This document shows positions 2,956-21,084 of a DNA stretch of 26,368 nt, piece after piece. This DNA is from a virus. The stretch is from positions 16,627 to 42,994 of IMG/VR virus record IMGVR_UViG_3300033146_002098; one strand, 5' to 3'. Made by a program: the position numbers and the translations under genes. Position 1 is the stretch's first letter; each line of letters begins with the position of its first letter. The notes under the pieces were generated by a model. It was not told where the DNA came from. It ran no database searches and worked only from the letters and a program-made list of their open reading frames with translations.

Positions 2956-5013
2956 ATGGCAAACATAAGTCCTGGTGTATATGTAAAAATTATTGATAAT
3001 AGTGAATTTATAAATGAAGTTCCATCTATTACAATGTTTGTCCCATTCTTTTCTGATAAAGGGATTGATAATAAATTGGTTTTTCTTAATGGTACTAAAA
3101 CATTATTGACTAAATTTAAAGTAGATAATATTTTAAATCAAGGAAAAGAATTTAGGGAAGGCTATTTATGTCTTAAAAATTGGTTAGCAATTTCTGGTTC
3201 TGCTTATGGTATGAGAGTTTTACCACCTGATGCAACATATTCTAATATTTTAGTTTCATTAAAATTAGATCCAACTAATAACTATTGGATTATATCATTA
3301 GAAAATGTAACTGGTGTTCAAACTAAAGCAGAAATTGAAACTATAGTTAATACTACTAGTACTACTTCTAAACCATTATATATGTTATATGGTATTGGTA
3401 GAGGTGAATACTATGATAAAGTTAGTGTTAATTTTGTTGATGCTGTAAATGCTGATGATCAATACTATATTGATATATATTTAGATGATGCAGATGGTAG
3501 TGCAGTAATGGCAGAATCTAGATTAATTTCATTTAAAGAAGATATGGTTGATGATACTGGTGAAAGTATTTATTTAAAGGACGTATTATCTTTCTATTCA
3601 GATTTAATTTATGCTAAAATGAATGATACTAATATTATTGAATATTTAAATGCTGCTTTTAATTCTATACCTATTGAAGTATTATATGAATTATCTGATC
3701 CTGCTGGTCATACTGTTATAAATAATATGGGTTATTGGACTGGTGAAAATCCTAGTGGAGCTTTTTCTGGTCATGTTAATGAAGTTGCAGTTTATGATGG
3801 TTCTAATTGGTCATTTACTGATATCGTTAGAGGTGCTGCTTTTAAATATGCTAATGCTATTTCAGTTGTTACTGATCCAAGTACTTTAACATTAGATGAA
3901 AATAATCATCTTGATAGATATTATGTAGGTAGTGGTGCTACTGGAGCTTTTGCTGGACAAGATGGTAAAGTTGCAGTATATCATCAAGCATTTGATTATT
4001 TAACTCCTGAATGGACTTTTGAAGATATGTCTAGTTATATGTTTGATGGTGATACATTAAATCCTTTTGATAGATTCACATCAATATATTCAGCAGCCAA
4101 TTCTAATGATAGTGATATTAAACATCTTAATGAAGGAAGTCAAGGTTCTTTAATGAATTCTGTAACTGGTAGAATTGATTCTAGTATTGCTACTCAATAT
4201 TTAGTAAAATCATATAATGGTGAAATTGATAGTAAAGTTATTAATACTGAATTTGTTTATTTTCCATTTACATTTTGTCCATATCCAAAAGATGTAAAAG
4301 ATGCTGCACAAGCAATGGCTCAATATATTAGAAGAGATACTATAATTATTACAGATGTTGGTGATAATAATTCTCCTGATGTTGATATATTAAGACGGCA
4401 AAATGAATTTGCTTATAATACTTATTTTGTTGCATTATATGGTAATTATACTAGAGTTTATAATTCTGATATTGGTAAAGATATTTGGGTATCACCTTGT
4501 TATCATATGTCAACAGTTATTCCTTATACAGAAACTATTGCTGAATTATGGAGTGCACCAGCTGGTATTGCAAGAGCTTCATTACCAAATGTTAAAGAAG
4601 CAAGATATGAACCAGAACTTGGTGATAGAGATAATCTTTATAGAGCACAAATAAATCCAATAGTTCATTTTAGAGAAGGTTTTATAGTATGGGGACAATT
4701 AACTTCACAAACAAAAGCTTCTAGTTTACAAGATATTAATGTAGTTGTTACTATACTTTATATTAAGAAAGCATTAAAACAATATTGTAGAAATTATGTA
4801 TTTGAAAATAATGTACAAGAAGAAAGAGATAAAATATATAATACAGTTGATGAATTTTTAAAGTCAATTAAAGATGATGGTGGTTTATTGAAATACTCAC
4901 TTGAAGTAGTAGATGATGATTATCATTATAAAAGAAAAATAGTACCTGTTAATGTAATCTTATGGCCTACTAAAATCATTGAAAAAATTGAATTGAATCT
5001 TTTCGTAAGATAA
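2956..5013 (+). CDS. Contractile tail sheath protein with two inserted repeats
   Basis: The 685-residue product has the sheath-type N-terminus SPGVYVKIID (residues 5-14). Its C-terminal part (about 600-685) has a long basic/acidic helix containing FENNVQEERDKIYNTVDEFL and ends in beta strands with VPVNVILWPTKIIEKIEL, as in phage tail sheaths. Sheath subunits polymerise around the tail tube and contract to drive injection. The central part is unusual: residues 256-287 and 316-355 hold two copies of a GAF(S/A)G..(G/N)(K/E)VAVY...W(S/T)F motif resembling the DUF2793-type repeats of phage surface proteins. These are probably an exposed insertion. The start follows AGGAGG, and an intrinsic terminator lies directly downstream. 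Identification as a sheath is secure; the identity of the insertion is inferred. Confidence 0.88.
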   Translation: MANISPGVYVKIIDNSEFINEVPSITMFVPFFSDKGIDNKLVFLNGTKTLLTKFKVDNILNQGKEFREGYLCLKNWLAISGSAYGMRVLPPDATYSNILVSLKLDPTNNYWIISLENVTGVQTKAEIETIVNTTSTTSKPLYMLYGIGRGEYYDKVSVNFVDAVNADDQYYIDIYLDDADGSAVMAESRLISFKEDMVDDTGESIYLKDVLSFYSDLIYAKMNDTNIIEYLNAAFNSIPIEVLYELSDPAGHTVINNMGYWTGENPSGAFSGHVNEVAVYDGSNWSFTDIVRGAAFKYANAISVVTDPSTLTLDENNHLDRYYVGSGATGAFAGQDGKVAVYHQAFDYLTPEWTFEDMSSYMFDGDTLNPFDRFTSIYSAANSNDSDIKHLNEGSQGSLMNSVTGRIDSSIATQYLVKSYNGEIDSKVINTEFVYFPFTFCPYPKDVKDAAQAMAQYIRRDTIIITDVGDNNSPDVDILRRQNEFAYNTYFVALYGNYTRVYNSDIGKDIWVSPCYHMSTVIPYTETIAELWSAPAGIARASLPNVKEARYEPELGDRDNLYRAQINPIVHFREGFIVWGQLTSQTKASSLQDINVVVTILYIKKALKQYCRNYVFENNVQEERDKIYNTVDEFLKSIKDDGGLLKYSLEVVDDDYHYKRKIVPVNVILWPTKIIEKIELNLFVR

Positions 5014-7668: not shown

Positions 7669-8576
7669 AAGAACTATATAATCCTAAACATATAATTAAT
7701 AATTTTAATGATATTGAATTTGAAAATGTTAATGTCTTTTTACATTGTATTCAATATGATTATTATAATTATATTAATAAAAATGCTTCTATTATTAAAA
7801 TCAACATAAATAGTTTAGAAGAATTAAATACGTTATCTAATTTGTTAGAAAAAACTAATCTTTATAATATGGTAACATTAAATTTAAAATTCTCTAAAGA
7901 TTGTTTTTATAAGGTTCTTGAAGATTCTAATAATAAAATTTATAATTATATATATCCAATTAATATAGACTTTATACCAGAATTAACAACTAAAGAATTA
8001 CTTGAGAAATATCCTCATTTTAAAAATTGGTTTAGCAAAAAACCAATTATAATTGATTATGAAATTGAATATAATAATTTTATTGATAGATTTAATAATG
8101 TTATAACTATATTAAGAAATAAACAATGGAGATTTTTTAATTTTAAATTTGATTTTATATCTTTTGAAGAAATGAAAATTAAAGAATATGCTTTATTAGA
8201 ATTCTGGATTAATCATATTATTAGTTGGACATCAGATTCTAGAAATAGAAATGGTTTAGTTTTTAATTATTCTAATAAATTTATTAAAACAGTCTATATT
8301 GATAATAAACTTAATCTTAAATATAATAATAATGGTGAAACATTCTTTAACATATATAATAGTATAAATAAAAATGGAGAAGATTTTTCTAATGAAGAAT
8401 TATCTAAATTACATCAATATTTAGAACTTAATGAATCTAAATGTTATTTTATTTTAAAATCTAAATTATTTAATTGGTGTATTTTAGATTTTGATCAGAA
8501 TCTAAAATTAGAAACTTCTATAAATGAGATTCCTATTATAACACAACTTGTAGGTGGATTATTAATAAATGTCTAA
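7650..8576 (+). CDS. Unknown protein coupled to the fibre and radical SAM genes
   Basis: This 308-residue protein starts inside the end of the fibre gene (19-base overlap) after AGGAGATGG, and its end overlaps the radical SAM gene by 8 bases. The sequence is rich in Asn, Ile, Phe and Tyr. Alternating strand-like and helix-like segments (for example INIDFIPEL, KPIIIDYEIEY, FNFKFDFISFEEM) suggest an alpha/beta, perhaps TIM-barrel-like, fold. It lacks the CxxxCxxC motif of radical SAM enzymes. One possibility, weakly supported, is a degenerate radical-SAM-like or substrate-recognition partner for the enzyme encoded next. Tight coupling on both sides shows it belongs to the fibre, radical SAM and cysteine-rich protein cassette. 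Function is unknown. Confidence 0.6.
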   Translation: MVQSSIKELYNPKHIINNFNDIEFENVNVFLHCIQYDYYNYINKNASIIKININSLEELNTLSNLLEKTNLYNMVTLNLKFSKDCFYKVLEDSNNKIYNYIYPINIDFIPELTTKELLEKYPHFKNWFSKKPIIIDYEIEYNNFIDRFNNVITILRNKQWRFFNFKFDFISFEEMKIKEYALLEFWINHIISWTSDSRNRNGLVFNYSNKFIKTVYIDNKLNLKYNNNGETFFNIYNSINKNGEDFSNEELSKLHQYLELNESKCYFILKSKLFNWCILDFDQNLKLETSINEIPIITQLVGGLLINV

Positions 8577-9687
8577 TTACTTTCAGATTCCAGCAACTGA
8601 TTTATTATTAACTAATAAATGTAATATGCAATGTAAATATTGTTTTGAAGATGATAAAAAATCTGGTTGCGATCTTAATGATAAAACTTTCAAATTTATA
8701 ATTGATAATAATATAGTTAAATTAATTTCTCCTTTTGGCGGTGAACCACTTATTAAGTTTCCATTGCTTTTAAATAATTATAAATATTGTAATGAAAATA
8801 AAAATATTCAAGATATACATATTAAAAATTACATAATTACAAATGGATTATTAATTGAAAAACATATCAAAGAAATTAAAGAAAATAATTTTAATTTACA
8901 AATTAGTTTAGATGGCATTAAAGAATCTAATCATAATAGAATTACAAAAACAAATATTAATAGTTATGATATAGTTATGAATGCTATTGAATTATGCTAT
9001 AAACATAAAATTAATTGGAGTATACATGGTGTTATTCTAAAAGATACTATTAAATATATATCTAGAAACTATATTTTTACTTTTAAATTATATCAAAAAT
9101 ATTATGGATTAAAAGAAACTATTAAAAGAATGGATGGTAATTGTTTTTCAATTGCCTTTGAAGAAGAATATTCAGATTCTGATATTGATTTATTTTTAAA
9201 TGAATATTCTAAAATTAATAACTATATTAATAATGTAAAAGATTTAACTAAAGAAAATAAAAATCAACTTAAAAAATATCTATTTTCACATATATCAAAA
9301 ATCTGTTCAGCAGGAATGTCTTTTTCTGCTTTAGATGGTAATTTGGATATTTATCCATGTCATAGATATTCTTTATCAAAAGATTTTAATAAATTCAAAC
9401 TTGGTAATATTAAAAATATTAAACAATTTGATTTAAAAACAATTAAATTATATAACACTTTATTTAGATTACAAAGGAGAAATCCTATAATGTATTCTAA
9501 TAATAATTTTCAATTTAAAGTTTCTAATAATAGAACTAATTTATTATATTATTATTGTCCAGCAAGTAATCATTTTATTTCTAATAATCCTTATTTTATA
9601 CCAAGTAAATATAGTATATTAATTCAGAAGTTATCAATATTATTAGAAACTTTTTTAAATAATAAGGAGGAATCTAAAAATGATTAA
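8569..9687 (+). CDS. Radical SAM protein with SPASM-like C-terminal region
   Basis: The 372-residue enzyme has the radical SAM cluster motif TNKCNMQCKYCFED with C18, C22 and C25 (CX3CX2C). It is followed by GGEP at residues 57-60, the S-adenosylmethionine-binding strand, and by ISLDGI near residue 110. The C-terminal part has C246 and C264 in the pattern C..G......DG....PC typical of SPASM/twitch auxiliary cluster regions, and C330 in a later YYYCP. The fold is that of peptide- and protein-modifying radical SAM enzymes (sactipeptide, ranthipeptide or sulfatase-maturase type). It overlaps the unknown protein upstream by 8 bases and the cysteine-rich protein downstream by 8 bases, and the latter is the obvious candidate substrate. 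Assignment to the superfamily is firm; the reaction is inferred. It is distinct from the activase NrdG at 18593. Confidence 0.85.
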   Translation: MSNYFQIPATDLLLTNKCNMQCKYCFEDDKKSGCDLNDKTFKFIIDNNIVKLISPFGGEPLIKFPLLLNNYKYCNENKNIQDIHIKNYIITNGLLIEKHIKEIKENNFNLQISLDGIKESNHNRITKTNINSYDIVMNAIELCYKHKINWSIHGVILKDTIKYISRNYIFTFKLYQKYYGLKETIKRMDGNCFSIAFEEEYSDSDIDLFLNEYSKINNYINNVKDLTKENKNQLKKYLFSHISKICSAGMSFSALDGNLDIYPCHRYSLSKDFNKFKLGNIKNIKQFDLKTIKLYNTLFRLQRRNPIMYSNNNFQFKVSNNRTNLLYYYCPASNHFISNNPYFIPSKYSILIQKLSILLETFLNNKEESKND

Positions 9688-10252
9688 TATAGGTGATCTT
9701 ATTTTACCAATTGATATAAATACAATTATAGATAAAATAAATGCAGAAGGTGTTAGAAGGGATGTTACTACTCCAGTATTTGATCATAGATTACAAGATC
9801 ATGAAATTGATAAAGATACAATATATAAAATGGCACAAAGAAATGAACTAATAAATAATAATCATTGTTATTGTGAAAGTGATCCTACTATGTCAATTCA
9901 TCATGGTGGAGATGTATTACCTTTAAATATTAATTCTTCAAATATAGATGGTGAAATTGAAGAATCAGATATTAATGGTTTACTAACTGATATTAATGCT
10001 ATGTCAGCTCAAACTAATTGTTCAATACATGAAAATCATTTTACTACATATTATTGTGATTATAATGGTTGTCATGATGGTTGCTGGTCTGTTTGTGGTG
10101 TTCATACATATGGACTTAATTGTGCTACTGATTGTCATTGTCAAAATTATTGTTCATATGTTGGGGACGGTAGTTGTTATTGTCATAATGTATGTCCATG
10201 TCAAAATGTCTGCTCTTGCGATGCTGTTTGTAATTGTGAATTTGTAACTTAA
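9680..10252 (+). CDS. Protein with cysteine-rich repeat C-terminus, candidate radical SAM substrate
   Basis: This 190-residue protein starts after AAGGAGGA inside the end of the radical SAM gene. The N-terminal 120 residues are ordinary and polar, with one HCYC cluster near residue 62. The C-terminal 70 residues hold sixteen of its nineteen cysteines. Residues 166-189 are four exact-length hexapeptide repeats of the form C-x-C-x-x-V, preceded by CHCQNYC and CHDGCWSVC. Two explanations fit: a ribosomally made substrate whose cysteines receive thioether bridges from the adjacent radical SAM enzyme, or a metal-binding, metallothionein-like tail. Position between two fibre genes suggests a virion or fibre-associated protein. 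I know of no named family. The gene is certain; the role is inference. Confidence 0.75.
   Translation: MINIGDLILPIDINTIIDKINAEGVRRDVTTPVFDHRLQDHEIDKDTIYKMAQRNELINNNHCYCESDPTMSIHHGGDVLPLNINSSNIDGEIEESDINGLLTDINAMSAQTNCSIHENHFTTYYCDYNGCHDGCWSVCGVHTYGLNCATDCHCQNYCSYVGDGSCYCHNVCPCQNVCSCDAVCNCEFVT
10175..10246 (+). repeat. Four in-frame 18-bp repeats encoding CxCxxV
   Basis: Four consecutive 18-base units each encode Cys-x-Cys-x-x-Val. The bases differ between units while the amino acid pattern is kept, so selection acts on the peptide pattern rather than on the DNA. Confidence 0.8.
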
Positions 10253-11529: not shown

Positions 11530-11556
11530 ACTATGGAGACGAGCTCCATAGTTTTC
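11530..11556 (+). terminator. Intrinsic terminator after the beta-helix fibre gene
   Basis: A 9-bp stem ACTATGGAG / CTCCATAGT (11530-11538 and 11544-11552) with a 5-base loop is followed by TTTTC. It is one of the few GC-containing hairpins in this AT-rich stretch and lies 24 bases after a stop codon. Confidence 0.75.
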
Positions 11557-12188: not shown

Positions 12189-12497
12189 ATGCCAAAGAAA
12201 AAAGATAATAAGGAATCTAAAAAGAAATCAAAAGTAACAAAAATAGATTCTAAAAAAGATAATAAGGAATCTAAAAAGAAATCAAAAGTAACAAAAATAG
12301 ATTCTAAAAAAGTAAATAAAAATAATTTACAATCTGAAATTAAAGAATTAAAAATTCAGATTTATGATATTTTAGAAAATGAAAATATGATTAATCTTAA
12401 TATTAAACAATTAACTAATAAGCATAATGAATTAGAAAAAAATAAAATGGAATTAATAGGTAAATTAAATAAGTTAAGAACTCAATTAGTTAAATAA
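12189..12497 (+). CDS. Small Lys-rich coiled-coil protein with internal tandem repeat
   Basis: This 102-residue, strongly basic protein starts behind AAAGGAG. Residues 6-23 and 24-41 are two identical 18-residue units beginning DNKESKKK. Residues about 46-100 form a heptad-like coiled coil (LQSEIKELKIQIYDIL and later LEKNKMELIGKLNKL). It could bind nucleic acid or act as a small scaffold or structural protein. I do not recognise a family. It is the last gene before a strong terminator and closes the tail module. Confidence 0.55.
   Translation: MPKKKDNKESKKKSKVTKIDSKKDNKESKKKSKVTKIDSKKVNKNNLQSEIKELKIQIYDILENENMINLNIKQLTNKHNELEKNKMELIGKLNKLRTQLVK
12204..12311 (+). repeat. Exact 54-bp tandem duplication
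   Basis: Two identical 54-base units (12204-12257 and 12258-12311) lie inside the Lys-rich gene. There is no synonymous difference between the copies, which points to a recent in-frame duplication. Confidence 0.9.
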
Positions 12498-12542: not shown

Positions 12543-12575
12543 GGGGATATTAAAAATTAATATCCCCCATTTTTT
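12543..12575 (+). terminator. Intrinsic terminator closing the tail module
   Basis: A 10-bp perfect stem GGGGATATTA / TAATATCCCC (12543-12552 and 12558-12567) with a 5-base loop is followed by CA and six T. It nearly duplicates the stem of the terminator at 5034. Confidence 0.9.
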
Positions 12576-12643
12576 ACGTGTTAATTATTAATATTTTAAT
12601 AATTAGATTAAATACTGAAAATAGGTTCTTATTATATCATTCC

Positions 12644-12746
12644 AAAAAAAGATCAACAGTAGAGAGAACATATCTAAAAATATATTATATATAAATAATA
12701 GTTGTACCAAAACAACTACTAACTATAAAGTAATTAAAGATATATG
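12644..12746 (+). repeat. 103-bp direct repeat, copy 1 (candidate structured RNA)
   Basis: This copy is identical to 12845-12947 except at 12707 and 12709, both in the loop of a hairpin with stem TAGTTGT/ACAACTA (12699-12718). CATATCT near the 5' end can pair with AGATAT near the 3' end to enclose the element. An alternative pairing ATAGTT/AACTAT competes with the central hairpin. A hairpin GTTCT-ATA-AGAAC (12750-12762) follows at once. Confidence 0.8.
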
Positions 12747-12813
12747 TAAGTTCTATAAGAACAATGGAGTAGTTTTTTAAAGTCAGATCGCAGAATCTAT
12801 TAAAAAATTAAAT

Positions 12814-12838
12814 TGTTCTTATAAGAAACATTTTTTTT
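12814..12838 (+). terminator. Intrinsic terminator between the two repeat units
   Basis: The near-palindrome TGTTCTTATAAGAAACA (12814-12830, one bulged A) is followed by eight T. It would end a short RNA that contains repeat copy 1, making that unit a likely independent small transcript of under 200 bases. Confidence 0.65.
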
Positions 12839-12844
12839 ACATTG

Positions 12845-12947
12845 AAAAAAAGATCAACAGTAGAGAGAACATATCTAAAAATATATTATATATAAATAAT
12901 AGTTGTAACCAAACAACTACTAACTATAAAGTAATTAAAGATATATG
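12845..12947 (+). repeat. 103-bp direct repeat, copy 2 (candidate structured RNA)
   Basis: This is the second copy of the element, offset exactly 201 bases from the first and 101/103 identical to it. It is followed at once by a hairpin GTTCTT-CTTGA-AAGAAC (12948-12964), which has the same shape as the one after copy 1 but a different loop and stem length. Conservation stops at the edge of that hairpin. Confidence 0.8.
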
Positions 12948-13080
12948 GTTCTTCTTGAAAGAACATTGACCAGTCTTTTAAGTGTAGTTACAAAAAATAA
13001 TCATTTTATCAATTAATTTCAAAAAAGTATCTTTTATAGTATCTCTTTTTTTTTGTTAAATTTTTAAATTTTTAGTATTA

Positions 13081-13125
13081 AGATAGGATTTTTTAATCTT
13101 TAGTGAGATTAAAAAAATCCAATCT
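13081..13125. other. Long hairpin upstream of the RNA polymerase gene
   Basis: AGAT-A-GGATTTTTTAATCT pairs with AGATTAAAAAAATCC-A-ATCT across a 6-base loop, with one mismatch and one extra A, giving about 18 paired bases. There is no T-run after it, so it is not a standard terminator on the + strand. A small hairpin AGACTAAAGTCT follows at 13131-13142. An RNA leader structure or a protein-binding site is possible. Confidence 0.6.
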
Positions 13126-13250
13126 AAGAAAGACTAAAGTCTACTATTACACTATTTAAAAATTAGTTATACTTTCATTTATATCAGTACAAAAAATATA
13201 AAAAATTTTAAAAAATTACAAAATAAATATCTGACAAGAAAGGAAACAAA

Positions 13251-16200
13251 ATGTATACTCCAGAAAAAATACAATTATTTATTAGAAAGGTCAATAAACT
13301 TAGATTTCTTCCTAATACTAAAGAAAATAGAAATAAATATAAAATTATATATCTACCAGAAAATATCAAATTTGATAAAGTATATCCTTTAATGAACTTA
13401 TATAAACAAGATATTAGGAGAGTTGTTAATCCAAGATTAAAAATTTCTGGTATGGGTACTATTAATATAAATACAGATACTAATAAAGCTATTAAAAAAT
13501 TAGGACTATTAATATCAGTTAATAGAAAATCAGTTGAAAATACTAATCAGAATTATATTATTGATACAACAGAAATAATCAAAAAAATTATTACTGTTAA
13601 TAAAAGAAATTTTATTTCTAGTGTAAGTAATAGATTATATACTTCTTTATTAGATAAGTTAGTTACTCCTTTAAATAAAAATAAAAAAGAAACTACTTAT
13701 AAAAATATTATAATGTATTGCATGGATGTAGGTTCACCAATAGAACCAGATATTAAAAGAAGAGTTATATTTCCATTATTATTTTTTTATATTAGAAATA
13801 AAATACAAATACCTGGTATAGATTATATTTTTTTATGTTTAGTAAATTCTAAAAAACCTGATAAGTTACCAGTATACATAAAAATTTATGATTCTAATAT
13901 TAAAGGTAATTTCTATTCAAGAATAATGAATATTTTTAAAAGTATCAAATTAGATAATACTGAAATTGAAAATTATGTAGATGATCTTTCACAAAATATA
14001 ATTAAAAATGAAACAGATAATTCTAATATGTTAAATAATATATATCAGAAAATTACCAATAAGAAATCTGATGAAGTAACTGATGTTGAAAAATATAAAA
14101 TCAATAATAAGATTTCATCTGCAATATCAATATATTTAAAAGATAATCCAGAAAATACAAATTTATTTACAGATATATTAGGTAAAAAATCTGATTCTGT
14201 TAATGAATTAATATTGAAACATGCAATAATAGCAACTGCAACTATATATGCAGCAACTAGAAATAAAGAAAAAAGTGATAAAATTTTAAAAATTGGATTA
14301 AAATCAAGTAAGAAAACTAATACTAAATTAAAAAATAATGATATTAATATAATTAAAAAATTTACTGATTTAACAGATACTTATATAGATAGAGTAATAG
14401 ATAAATTTACTTTTCAGAATTTATCTCAAGATCCATTAATATCTAAATTAGATTTACCAAAGATAGTAGACGATAAAGTTCCTGATGAATTATTTTATAA
14501 GAAACAATATGATTATACTGTGGAATTAAAAAATGATATAATTAAATTATTTAAACAATTTGAAACAAAACAATTTCCATTAAAATTAATTAGTATTAAA
14601 GCTAGTAATAAACAAAATGAAAATGAAATTAAAAAAACAGTATATATGGTTTTTGATATTACATTACAAGATGATAAAGGTAAACAATTTAATATACAAT
14701 TAATGTTACCAAGTATAGATAGTAATGGTAATTTTTTAATAAATGGACATAAGAAATTATTAATAAATCAATTAATATTAAAGCCAGTATATTTTCCAAA
14801 ACCAAGAGTATGTAAAATAACTTCTTTTTTCTCAACAGTAACAATTGAAAATAGATATGTTAGACAAATTTATTATTTAAGAATTTATCTAGTTGGTTTA
14901 GTATTGTCTATGTATAATTATTTAGCATATACTACAAGATCATTAGGTGGTCCTGATTATATATTTAAAAGATTAGGATTAACTTATCAAATTAGTGATA
15001 ATACTAAAGAAACAACTAAAATTAAAAGAAGTACTAAAAATAATTGGTATATAAATTTTTTTAATCAAGGTACTATATTTTTTAATAAAGCTAAAATGGA
15101 ATCTTCACCGTTATTAAGATCATTATATTATGGTATGAAAATGGTTAATTATAAAAGATTAAAAATTACATTACAACAATTTTTAGATCCTAATTTTCAA
15201 TCAACAATAATAATATTAGGAACTGGAAAAAAGAATGCTCCTTATAGATTAGATAATCTTAATGCTGGATTCTTAGATCAAGTAACTAAAGAATTATTAG
15301 AAAATGATAATTATCCTACAAAGTTACTTGATTTATTTTGGTGGGCTATGGAAAAAGTTCAAACTGATTATGTAGATGTTAGAACTGATTTGTCAAAACA
15401 AAGAGTTAGATCAACAGAAGTTTTTACTCATGGAGTATATAAGCAATTATTAATAGCATATAATCAATATTTAAATAAAAGATTATCTGGTATTGAAGAT
15501 GCTAATTTTGAAATTGATCCAATGCATGTATTTAAACAAATTGCTAATTCTCAATTAGTTAGAATGAAAAATAATATTAATCCAATGCAAGAATTAACTG
15601 ATATGAGTAGAACTACTTTAGTAGGTTTAGGTGGTATAGCTAATTCTAATGGAGCTACAGGTTCTTTGAGAACTATTAATGATAGTTACTTTGGTACATT
15701 AGCTCCTGCTGATACTCCAGAAGGTGGTGCTATTGGGATATTAAATCAATTAACTGTTAATAGTAGTTTTAAAAATACAAGAGGAGAATTAAATCTTAAA
15801 CAAATTAATAATAATGAAAAAGCAGGTTTATTATCAGTTAGTGGTGCTATTGTTCCATTCTGTAATCATAATGATGGAGCTAGAATGATGATGGCTACAA
15901 ACCAAACTAGACAGATTGTATCATTAATGAATCCTGAACCACCATTAGTTCAAACTGGTTATGAAACAATTTTAGCTAGTTTTTTAAGTGATGCTTTTTT
16001 AAAAAGAAGTCCATTTAATGGAACAATAGTTGAAGTTACTAATAATTATATAATGATAAAAGAAAAATCAAAACAACATCAAAAAGAAAATAAAATTAAA
16101 ATTGATTTACAACCTGTTTTATTACCTTCTGGTCAAGGTATTCATGGAGTTTCATATTTTAATCCAAAAGTAAAAGTAGGTCAAAAGATAAAATATAATC

Positions 16201-17678
16201 AAGTTATTGCTGAAGGTGCTACTATGGTTGATTCTACTATATCATTAGGTAGAAATTTATTAGTAGGTTATATGCCATATAAAGGTTATAATTTTGAAGA
16301 TGGAATAGTAATCAATTCTAAATTATTAAAACAAAAAAGAATGATATCAAAGCATTTACAAAAAATTGAATTTCATATACCAGAAAATTCAAAAATATTA
16401 TCAACACCAGGAAATGATCCTAATAGAAAAGATATTAGTTCTACATTAGAAGAATTATTTAATATTACAAATGATGAAGGCGGGATAAAATATTCAGCTG
16501 GTGATACTATAATATCATATTTACCAAAACAAATATCTGAAATGATTGAATTAGATATTGATGAAATGACATCAGATGGAATTATATTAATAAAGGCTCC
16601 TTATGACGGTAGAATAATAGATATTGAAGTGAGTAGTAATGAATCTATAGATGATCATCCAAAATTAAAAAAATTATTTTTGACTAGTAATCAATTAAAA
16701 AAATCAAAAGGAAAAGCAGTAATTCCAAATGGTAAATATAAATTAAAAGATGAAACATTTAAAGGAACTATAATTAATATATTATATGAATATAAAGATG
16801 AAGGAATTATACTTGGTAATAAATATTGTAATAGACATGGTAATAAAGGCACAATTTGTTATATAGAAGATAAAATGCCTATTACTCCTTGGGGAGAAGA
16901 ATTAGATATTATATTTAATCCACTTGGTATTATTTCTAGAATGAATATTGGTCAAATTTTAGAATTATATTGTGGTTTAATTTGTAGAGAATTAAGAAAT
17001 AGAATGGTTAAAAATTCTTCTAAAAAGAATGTAACTAGTTTACTTAAAAATATATATCAGGATATATTAGATAATAGTCCTAAGAAAGTTGTATCTAAAT
17101 CTATGATTAAAATTATAAATAATATGAGTACAACTGTTTATAAAAAATGGTTTGAAAATAATGTTAAAAATAGAATTGGTTTTTCTTTAATATTTCCTAC
17201 GTTTAATACTCCAACTATGAAAGATATTTCAAAAGTATTAATAAAATTAAAACTAAAAGATTCATATATATTAGATTTACCAAGTTATGGACCAGGAGTT
17301 AAAACAAAATTCCCAGTAGCTGTAGGTTACTTATATATTTACAAATTAGAACATATGGCTAAATTTAAATTATCATCGAGATCAACCGCAAAGTATTCTA
17401 GTAAAACTATGCAACCAACAGTAGGTAAAAAAAATATTGGCGGTCAAAGATTTGGTGAATTTGATTCATGGGCTTTATTTAGTTATGGAGCTAAATCATT
17501 AATAAAAGAATTTTATAGTTTATCATCTGATGATGTTAGTAATAAAAATAAAGTAATATCTGATATTATACAAGATGGATTAGCTCATTTACCAGATGAA
17601 GCTAAAACAACTCCAACAAAGGATTTATTAGAAATGTATATTAAAATGATGATGTTAGATATACAAGGAGAAATGTAA
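13251..17678 (+). CDS. Phage DNA-directed RNA polymerase beta-subunit homologue
   Basis: The 1475-residue protein carries the RpoB conserved blocks in order: GNFLINGHKKLL (493-504), NPMQELTDMSRTT (777-789), ADTPEGGAIG (820-829), SGAIVPFCNHNDGARMMMA (864-882), LGRNLLVGYMPYKGYNFEDG (999-1018), GNKYCNRHGNKG (1189-1200) and GGQRFGEFDSWAL (1397-1409). The two lysines of the catalytic region (K1191 and K1199) are kept. Beta and beta-prime together form the active centre; no beta-prime or sigma gene is in the window. Compared with bacterial beta, which has the first block near residue 130, this protein has roughly 360 extra N-terminal residues of unknown fold and a shorter remainder. In phiKZ/AR9-type phages beta is split into two genes, whereas here it is one chain. 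The start follows AGAAAGGAAA, and the stop overlaps the next start (TAATG). Confidence 0.92.
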   Translation: MYTPEKIQLFIRKVNKLRFLPNTKENRNKYKIIYLPENIKFDKVYPLMNLYKQDIRRVVNPRLKISGMGTININTDTNKAIKKLGLLISVNRKSVENTNQNYIIDTTEIIKKIITVNKRNFISSVSNRLYTSLLDKLVTPLNKNKKETTYKNIIMYCMDVGSPIEPDIKRRVIFPLLFFYIRNKIQIPGIDYIFLCLVNSKKPDKLPVYIKIYDSNIKGNFYSRIMNIFKSIKLDNTEIENYVDDLSQNIIKNETDNSNMLNNIYQKITNKKSDEVTDVEKYKINNKISSAISIYLKDNPENTNLFTDILGKKSDSVNELILKHAIIATATIYAATRNKEKSDKILKIGLKSSKKTNTKLKNNDINIIKKFTDLTDTYIDRVIDKFTFQNLSQDPLISKLDLPKIVDDKVPDELFYKKQYDYTVELKNDIIKLFKQFETKQFPLKLISIKASNKQNENEIKKTVYMVFDITLQDDKGKQFNIQLMLPSIDSNGNFLINGHKKLLINQLILKPVYFPKPRVCKITSFFSTVTIENRYVRQIYYLRIYLVGLVLSMYNYLAYTTRSLGGPDYIFKRLGLTYQISDNTKETTKIKRSTKNNWYINFFNQGTIFFNKAKMESSPLLRSLYYGMKMVNYKRLKITLQQFLDPNFQSTIIILGTGKKNAPYRLDNLNAGFLDQVTKELLENDNYPTKLLDLFWWAMEKVQTDYVDVRTDLSKQRVRSTEVFTHGVYKQLLIAYNQYLNKRLSGIEDANFEIDPMHVFKQIANSQLVRMKNNINPMQELTDMSRTTLVGLGGIANSNGATGSLRTINDSYFGTLAPADTPEGGAIGILNQLTVNSSFKNTRGELNLKQINNNEKAGLLSVSGAIVPFCNHNDGARMMMATNQTRQIVSLMNPEPPLVQTGYETILASFLSDAFLKRSPFNGTIVEVTNNYIMIKEKSKQHQKENKIKIDLQPVLLPSGQGIHGVSYFNPKVKVGQKIKYNQVIAEGATMVDSTISLGRNLLVGYMPYKGYNFEDGIVINSKLLKQKRMISKHLQKIEFHIPENSKILSTPGNDPNRKDISSTLEELFNITNDEGGIKYSAGDTIISYLPKQISEMIELDIDEMTSDGIILIKAPYDGRIIDIEVSSNESIDDHPKLKKLFLTSNQLKKSKGKAVIPNGKYKLKDETFKGTIINILYEYKDEGIILGNKYCNRHGNKGTICYIEDKMPITPWGEELDIIFNPLGIISRMNIGQILELYCGLICRELRNRMVKNSSKKNVTSLLKNIYQDILDNSPKKVVSKSMIKIINNMSTTVYKKWFENNVKNRIGFSLIFPTFNTPTMKDISKVLIKLKLKDSYILDLPSYGPGVKTKFPVAVGYLYIYKLEHMAKFKLSSRSTAKYSSKTMQPTVGKKNIGGQRFGEFDSWALFSYGAKSLIKEFYSLSSDDVSNKNKVISDIIQDGLAHLPDEAKTTPTKDLLEMYIKMMMLDIQGEM

Positions 17679-18388: not shown

Positions 18389-18409
18389 ATAATAAAAAGG
18401 AGATTGTTC

Positions 18410-18562
18410 ATGAGTAAAAAAATATGTGGAGAAAAATGTGAAATTTATTCAAGAGTATGTGGGTTTTTTAGACCTGTTGATGGTTGGAATCGTGGTAAGA
18501 AACAAGAATTTAAAGATCGTAAAGAATATGATATAAAAATTAATAATAAAAAAACAAAGTAA
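18410..18562 (+). CDS. nrdD (C-terminal part): Stand-alone glycyl radical segment of class III ribonucleotide reductase
   Basis: The 50-residue protein starts at ATG behind AAGGAGA. Residues 10-41 (beginning CEIYSRVCGFFRPV, then WNRGKKQEF and DRKEYD) match the extreme C-terminus of anaerobic reductase NrdD, where the motif 'C..YSRVVGYLRPV..WN.GK..EF' carries the radical glycine. G18 in RVCGF would be the radical site. The main nrdD product at 19339-21084 stops right after its zinc-binding cysteines and lacks this segment, so the two polypeptides together make one NrdD. NrdG, which installs the radical, is encoded between them. A known parallel is the autonomous glycyl radical cofactor of pyruvate formate-lyase (YfiD, and T4 Y06I). 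Identification of the motif is firm; working in trans is inferred. Confidence 0.85.
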   Translation: MSKKICGEKCEIYSRVCGFFRPVDGWNRGKKQEFKDRKEYDIKINNKKTK

Positions 18563-19338: not shown

Positions 19339-21084
19339 ATGAATATACAGATAAATAAAAATCAAATAATACCACAAAGATCAGTTCAATTTGAACCAAC
19401 ACCTGCATTTATAAAAAAATCTATTAACTTAGTAAACGATTATATTTCTAAAGATGATTGGAGAGTTAATGAAAATGCTAATGCTGGGTATTCTATACAA
19501 GGATTAAATAGTCATATTACTACTTATGTATCTGCATTATATTGGTTATATGAAATATATAATGAAGATATAAGAAATGCACATACAAGAGGAGAAATGC
19601 ATATACATGATCTTGGATATTTAACAGCATATTGTGCAGGATGGAGTTTGAAAGATTTATTACTTAAAGGATTCGGTGGAGTATATGGAAAAATAGCTTC
19701 AAGACCTGCAAAACATTTTAGAGCTATATTAGGACAAATATGGAATTTTATGTATTCAATGCAGGGAGAAGCTGCTGGAGCTCAAGCATTTTCATCTTTT
19801 GATACATACCTTGCACCTTTTATTAAATTTGATAAATTAAATTATTCTCAAGTAAAACAAGCTATGGAAGAATTTATATATAATATGAATATTCCAACTA
19901 GAGCAGGATTTCAAACTCCATTTACAAATATAACAATGGATTTACAATGTAATTCTGTAATGAAAGACCAACCAGTTATATATGCTGGTGAATATATTAA
20001 TCATACATATTCTGAATTTCAAAAGGAAATGAATATGATTAATAAAGCATTTTGTGAAGTTATGATGCAAGGTGATTCTAATCAAAGAATATTTACATTT
20101 CCAATACCAACTTATAACATTACTAAAGATTTTGATTGGGAAGATAAAAATTTAAAATCATTATGGGAAATGACTGCTAAGTATGGAATTCCTTATTTTG
20201 CAAATTATGCTAATTCAGATATGAGCCCTGAACAAGCCACCTCAATGTGTTGCCGCTTAAGAATTGATCATACTGAACTTAATAAAAGAGGTGGTGGACT
20301 TTTTGGTTCTAATCCATTGACTGGTAGTATAGGTGTTGTTACTATTAATTTACCAAAGCTTGGTTATCTTGCTTATAGTAATAATGATTTTTATGATAGA
20401 TTAGAAAAAGTAATGTATCTTGCAAAAGATTCTTTATTAATTAAAAGAAATATTATTGAAGATTTAACTGAGAATGATATGTATCCATATATAAAATATT
20501 ATTTATCTGATATTAAGAAAAGATTTAATAAATATTGGGCTAATCATTTTAATACAATAGGTATTATAGGAATGAATGAATGTTGTTGAAATAGAATACA
20601 TAAACCATTATCACATCCAGATGGTAAAAAGTTTGCTTTAGAAGTATTAGATTTTATGAGAAGTAAATTATTAAAGTATCAAAAAGAAACAAAGTTGATG
20701 TGGAATTTAGAAGCAACCCCAGCCGAGGGCATGGCTTTTCGCTTAGCAAAAAAAGATAGATTAAAATATAAAAATATAATTACATCAGGTACGGAAGATA
20801 ATCCTTATTATACTAATAGTACTCACTTACCAGTAGATTATACTAATGATGTATTTGAAGCATTAACACATCAAGATGAATTACAATGTAAATATACTGG
20901 TGGTACTGTATTTCATGCTTATTTAGGAGAAGCTATAGATGATTGGAGAACTTGTAGAAACTTAGTTAGAAAGATTGCTGAAAATTTTAAGTTGCCATAC
21001 TATAGTATATCGCCCGTATTTAGTATTTGCCCAAAATGCGGGTATATATCCGGAGAGCACGATACTTGTCCCAATTGTGTATAA
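19339..21084 (+). CDS. nrdD: Class III ribonucleotide reductase large subunit, interrupted by one in-frame TGA and lacking the glycyl radical end
   Basis: Read through one TGA (20587-20589, codon 417), this encodes 581 residues of anaerobic ribonucleoside-triphosphate reductase, which reduces NTPs to dNTPs. Residues 87-102 (MHIHDLGYLTAYCAGW, C99), MCCRL (303-307, with the thiyl cysteine), GGGLFGSNPLTGSIGVVTIN, GMNECC (411-416), NLEATPAEG and a zinc site (C564, C567, C577, C580) are all present. There is no N-terminal ATP-cone, so no dATP shut-off is expected. Without readthrough the parts would be 19339-20589 and 20590-21084; the first internal ATG of the second part, at 20656, has no good ribosome binding site. 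The protein ends one residue after the zinc site; the glycyl radical segment is encoded at 18410. Three short patches have higher G+C than their surroundings. Confidence 0.85.
20587..20589 (+). other. In-frame TGA codon inside nrdD
   Basis: TGA follows Cys-Cys in GMNECC and is followed by Asn, with clear NrdD homology in the same frame on both sides. Candidates are recoding (selenocysteine or suppression), a true nonsense mutation, or a base error. The only nearby stem I find is ACCAT/ATGGT (20604-20608 and 20621-20625) with a 12-base loop, which is too weak to call a SECIS element. Confidence 0.85.

Follow-up and report, generated by a model that had tools for sequence, protein, structure and literature searches.

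A block of 103 bp that stands twice in tandem ahead of an RNA polymerase gene in a giant-phage record is, in the reading that we tentatively favour with confidence a little short of even, a duplicated promoter for the phage's polymerase together with the first part of the 5' leader, in the regulatory region of the beta operon. The block looks more like a doubled phage-polymerase start site than a new small-RNA scaffold, and the interest of the element lies mainly in the possibility that the polymerase operon has its start site doubled.

The window analysed, a stretch of 26,368 nucleotides with a G+C content of 23%, comprises positions 16627-42994 of a virus record of 42,994 bases, itself a fragment of a giant-phage genome. 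It carries a contractile-tail gene cluster (sheath gene at 2956-5013), then the gene for the RNA polymerase beta subunit (13251-17678, + strand). The upstream operon ends at 12497, and the 753 bases from there to the beta gene form the longest gene-free stretch of the record. Near its start, at 12543-12577 (+ strand), the upstream operon, a late one, is closed by an intrinsic terminator (GGGGATATT...AATATCCCC, followed by T6), the sole terminator-like site found in a terminator scan (1 found, 0.0 expected). The beta gene encodes 1475 amino acids with Pfam Rpb2 domains, is also recognized by NCBIfam, and is 30-36% identical to its relatives; its product is a single unsplit chain, whereas phiKZ and AR9 have split subunits, and its C-terminus is canonical and bacterial-like; the AR9 beta subunit is only distantly related to it.

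The two copies of the block, unit 1 (12644-12746) and unit 2 (12845-12947), both on the + strand, begin 201 bases apart and are identical at 101 of 103 positions, as had been read from the sequence alone; the duplication is real, its length being far beyond chance. The two differences, at 12707 and 12709 in unit 1 (12908 and 12910 in unit 2), lie in the loop between TAGTTGT and ACAACTA; the sequence-only reading, too, had put them in a loop. Both copies begin with A7 and both end sharply. A nucleotide search of the whole record returned no third copy, and the only other long repeats in its 43 kb are a coding tandem at 12198-12305 and two short exact matches, of 38 and about 40 bases, between genes that neighbour each other.

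Because the + strand frame is open through both units save for one TAA, and 201 is a multiple of three, we tested for coding with a frame-specific codon model trained on the phage's own genes. The scores over the two units were -21.6 and -18.7 bits, the first of these for 12625-12780, against a mean of +22.6 and a 5th percentile of 11 for true genes of equal length. A protein-coding repeat is ruled out by these codon statistics, and searches with Pfam, PHROGs and tblastn gave no matches; the block is non-coding.

A promoter is suggested by a pentamer, GAACA, present in each core. Setting aside Shine-Dalgarno motifs, GAACA is the most over-represented pentamer between the genes of the record, with seven intergenic occurrences on the + strand and one of the reverse complement, at a density of 2.7 per kb against 0.59 per kb in genes. 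Three of the sites do not belong to the repeat (2912, 5101 and L002 7165), and all of these lie 33-48 nt before genes. For comparison, 80 IMG/VR loci were gathered with a small beta alignment, 15 of which (L009-L023) match most of beta at 30-36% identity. Upstream regions were compared in ten related records: in eight of them GAACA is the commonest of its 20 anagrams, and the pooled count is 63, against a mean of 15.1 for the other orderings and 14 for the reverse complement. Enrichment before genes is thus strand-specific in the record and in its relatives alike, and the aligned sites give the consensus AGAACA(A/T)A(A/T)TATAAA, typically 25-60 nt before a start codon, which we define here as the family GAACA late promoter. 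In the relatives the beta gene lies inside an operon and has no long leader; in most of them it follows a gene of about 1000 amino acids, beta'-like by PHROGs in L018. In L009, L011, L013, L018, L019 and L020 the box precedes the opening gene of this beta'-beta operon by about 34-42 nt. The family box is a computational inference; the same kind of count recovers the AR9 motif from a 40-kb stretch of AR9 (17 versus 3 reversed). A review states that, where phages have multisubunit polymerases, their late promoters could not be predicted from sequence (PMC7598289). In a family of uncultivated phages whose relationship shows in the polymerase beta subunit, a strand-specific GAACA box heading the beta'-beta operon is directly readable, which makes promoter recognition by such polymerases testable beyond AR9 and phiKZ. 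Two promoter-like motifs recur in L009-L023 and L172-L222, the late-type one just given and an early-type one, CTATATATATTA..TGA, and several of the related records hold a second beta-like gene.

The box of the duplicated block, AGAACA, lies at 12665-12670 in unit 1 and at 12866-12871 in unit 2 (+ strand) and is a candidate promoter element for the phage polymerase; each core contains AGAACATATCTAAAA, a near variant being AGAACATATT of record G005. Scored with the position weight matrix (PWM) of the relatives, each core reaches 9.0 where the best site reaches 13.8, and 115 of 2000 core shuffles did equally well; 9.0 is level with other intergenic candidates, and several sites inside genes score higher. 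The downstream half of the core box, TATCTAAAA, fits the family TATAAA in part and so falls outside the family as defined, as does the position of the boxes: their distances to the start codon of beta, 384 and 585 nt, exceed the 20-65 nt taken for membership and the roughly 25-60 nt of the relatives. Nearer to the beta gene is a weaker box at 13187-13202 (+ strand; GTACAAAAAATATAAA), a near-match to the family late promoter with a PWM score of 8.5, 64 nt before the polymerase start codon. The argument for a promoter thus comes mainly from a box shared across the family, from the strand it is on and from the operon it precedes, the PWM score being insufficient by itself. Given the GAACA box, a promoter is the simpler account of why the core is conserved and why it precedes the polymerase gene. 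A promoter takes up about 30 bp and does not by itself account for 103 conserved bases; recency of the duplication must be added to this account.

The nearest characterized counterpart is the late promoter of AR9, a PBS1-like Bacillus phage whose late promoters, in DNA that has uracil in place of thymine, serve its non-virion RNA polymerase. The mapped AR9 sites follow AACA-(6N)-TA/G, with the start at the last base; 17 of them deviate in spacing or bases, and certain AR9 genes are transcribed from two start sites (PMC5312081). Here too an AACA core lies upstream of genes in a phage with its own multisubunit polymerase, on the non-template strand at 12667-12670 and 12868-12871. The AR9 spacing is not kept, the core reading AACA-TATCTA-AA with a TA after four bases only; the present box also differs from that of AR9 in being GAACA with a TATAAA-like downstream half, and in standing in two tandem copies of 103 bp. 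Sequence searches for a homolog of the AR9 specificity subunit, gp226, gave no match in this record, which is a fragment, or in 14 relatives, a search that could easily miss one, since gp226-type proteins diverge past sequence detection (PMC9209446). With the AACA present, the T[A/G] spacing different and no gp226 match, we do not class the core with the late promoters of AR9, although it may work like them. An AR9-like early promoter was also considered and is not supported. Directly after the AGAACA box the core holds AAAAATATATTAT, which matches the early motif AAATATATATTAT-(6N)-G at 12 of 13 positions, but the start position lacks the G of AR9; 53 of 2000 shuffles match as well, no more than base composition allows, the window contains eight + strand sites of this kind, most of them within genes, and the core does not fit the early motif of the relatives (CTATATATATTA).

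Folding of the units is weak as a whole (z -0.7 to -2.2). All the stem motifs named in the sequence-only reading were found, CATATCT/AGATAT at 12669/12738, TAGTTGT/ACAACTA at 12699/12712 and ATAGTT/AACTAT at 12698/12721, and of these TAGTTGT/ACAACTA makes the only clear hairpin inside a unit: TAGTTGT-ACCAAA-ACAACTA in unit 1 (12699-12718, + strand; z -3.28), with both copy differences in its loop, and TAGTTGT-AACCAA-ACAACTA by sequence in unit 2 (12900-12919, + strand). Nothing covaries between the copies because the stem arms have the same letters in both. Each core had also been said to be followed by a GTTCT..AGAAC hairpin. The letters are there, at 12750-12762 and 12948-12964, but the structure is not favoured, with z of -0.24 and -0.39, no better than shuffles: the 3' end of unit 2 prefers another pairing, and the small hairpin of unit 1 is absorbed by a much stronger imperfect hairpin of 77 nt between the units (12751-12827, + strand; MFE -18.2, z -3.57, 1 of 200 shuffles). 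Three bases past the latter runs a T8 tract (12831-12838, + strand), and hairpin and tract together resemble an intrinsic terminator. A terminator-like site with eight T lies after unit 1, as first described, except that the hairpin preceding T8 is this one; it replaces the small GTTCT/AGAAC hairpin in that role. Unit 2 has no terminator-like ending; the next strong hairpin, in the leader upstream of the polymerase gene (13082-13125, + strand; z -4.9), is without a T tract.

We infer promoter activity in each core, the start points, a short RNA and an effect of the doubling on expression. In the mechanism that we propose, each AGAACA box would be a recognition element for the phage's own multisubunit RNA polymerase, with starts, placed by the AR9 spacing, near 12678 for unit 1 and near 12879 for unit 2. 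The unit 1 transcript would end at the 77-nt hairpin and T8 (12838); it would be a short RNA, about 160 nt long, with a stable hairpin near its 5' end. That of unit 2 would cross a leader of about 370 nt before entering the beta gene. Two start sites would then feed one region, and their doubling may raise or tune expression of the polymerase.

The main functional rival is a pair of sibling genes for trans-acting small RNAs, sharing a conserved core and differing in 3' ends directed to different targets, which we consider unlikely but worth weighing. Bacterial sibling small RNAs offer a likeness, two near-identical adjacent non-coding units the first of which has a terminator, with the difference that the present units are known from their sequence alone and that no homolog was found. 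The two units are non-coding, unit 1 closes with a terminator-like hairpin and T8, and both core differences keep to a loop. A constrained core with free ends also fits the distribution of differences: the ungapped 137-nt pair has 16, with 2 of them within the first 103 positions and the other 14 within the final 34 (hypergeometric 2.5e-8), a statistic that presupposes homology of these 34 positions, for which support is weak (7 of 1000 shuffles). The diverged part of unit 2 (12948-12980, + strand), which holds GTTCT..AGAAC and a second AGAACA (12960), is by the same measure weakly homologous to 12750-12780. Set against such a pair are the unstable 3' hairpins, the lack of a terminator after unit 2, the weak homology of the 34-nt ends, the promoter box, which accounts for part of the core, and the want of homologs or covariation. 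Exact patterns of 15 to 19 bases and hairpin patterns gave only unrelated matches in IMG/VR and genome contigs, the block gave only short, chance-level matches among phages and plasmids, and nucleotide and covariance-model searches of the 15 related phage records gave only AT-rich chance matches. Comparison with known RNA families, which the first reading had proposed as a check, yielded no match in Rfam 15 at gathering score (best chance matches E 0.05 and 0.75); the likeness to its riboswitches and phage RNAs goes no further than a few stems, and identity with a known family or riboswitch is rejected. The sequence-only reading, in which the core might be an RNA scaffold common to both units and the 3' part a recognition end particular to each, thus finds no support in homologs, covariation or a stable 3' hairpin. 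Of its candidate small RNA there survive the non-coding character and a plausible, short, terminated unit 1 transcript.

A recent tandem duplication of intergenic DNA with no function of its own is the main null explanation and seems to us about as improbable as the sibling pair. It would suit copies that are near-identical, specific to this record and without detected relatives, and whose whole-unit folding is weak. The adjoining small, lysine-rich ORF (12189-12497) opens with a perfect 54-bp tandem repeat, and the region is therefore prone to duplication. Chance duplication accounts less well for copies that start with A7 and stop sharply, for the family promoter box that they carry, and for their place in the longest gene-free stretch of the record. 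Nor do the relatives hold anything comparable: about 82 kb of intergenic DNA in ten related records contains no tandem intergenic repeat longer than 31 nt apart from a 43-nt tRNA-like match.

Rather less probable are twin regulatory RNAs, transcribed by the phage polymerase from promoters within the units; their 5' part would be common, and their 3' parts, particular to each unit, would act on different targets or feed back on the polymerase. Least probable, and a poor prospect, is a cis-acting leader whose alternative folding controls the polymerase operon, as an attenuator or as an autoregulatory site to which the polymerase binds: some pairings compete (ATAGTT/AACTAT; AGAAC/GTTCT/AGAAC), a hairpin with T8 lies between the units, the strong hairpin at 13082-13125 follows, and GTTCT/AGAAC is clustered (8 in 12600-13000 against 49 in the whole 26-kb window), but no anti-terminator is common to both units, unit 2 lacks the AACTACT/AGTAGTT pairing that unit 1 has, no riboswitch family in Rfam matches and the relatives have no such leader. 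Chance clustering of GTTCT/AGAAC is itself unlikely, and the promoter box accounts for part of the cluster.

The record also holds a tnpB gene on the minus strand (L002:5450-7100; guided_TnpB, 131 bits), its frame lost near the C-terminus, and the block was considered as a TnpB guide RNA; a nucleotide search of the whole record found no copy at the tnpB 3' end (L002 5450-6725), and that identity is rejected. A hairpin, CTATGGAG...CTCCATAG, flanks tnpB on both sides and recurs at 11530-11554 of the window as an exact repeat of 25 bases. Within the tail cluster, the 8569-10252 region contains a gene like those of radical SAM/SPASM peptide maturases (best NCBIfam match PapB, 2e-30, below cutoff), directly followed by a cysteine-rich ORF of 190 amino acids; the two could possibly specify a phage-encoded modified peptide. 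At 18404-18562 and 19339-21084, the anaerobic ribonucleotide reductase gene has an in-frame TGA (20587-20589; ...GMNECC*NRIHK...), and a glycyl-radical-like C-terminal piece, RVCGFFRPVDGWNRGKKQEFKDRKEY, is encoded apart, in a small ORF ahead of nrdG, the activase gene. A tRNA gene (L002:11839-11909; Rfam 70.7 bits) lies between baseplate-like genes.
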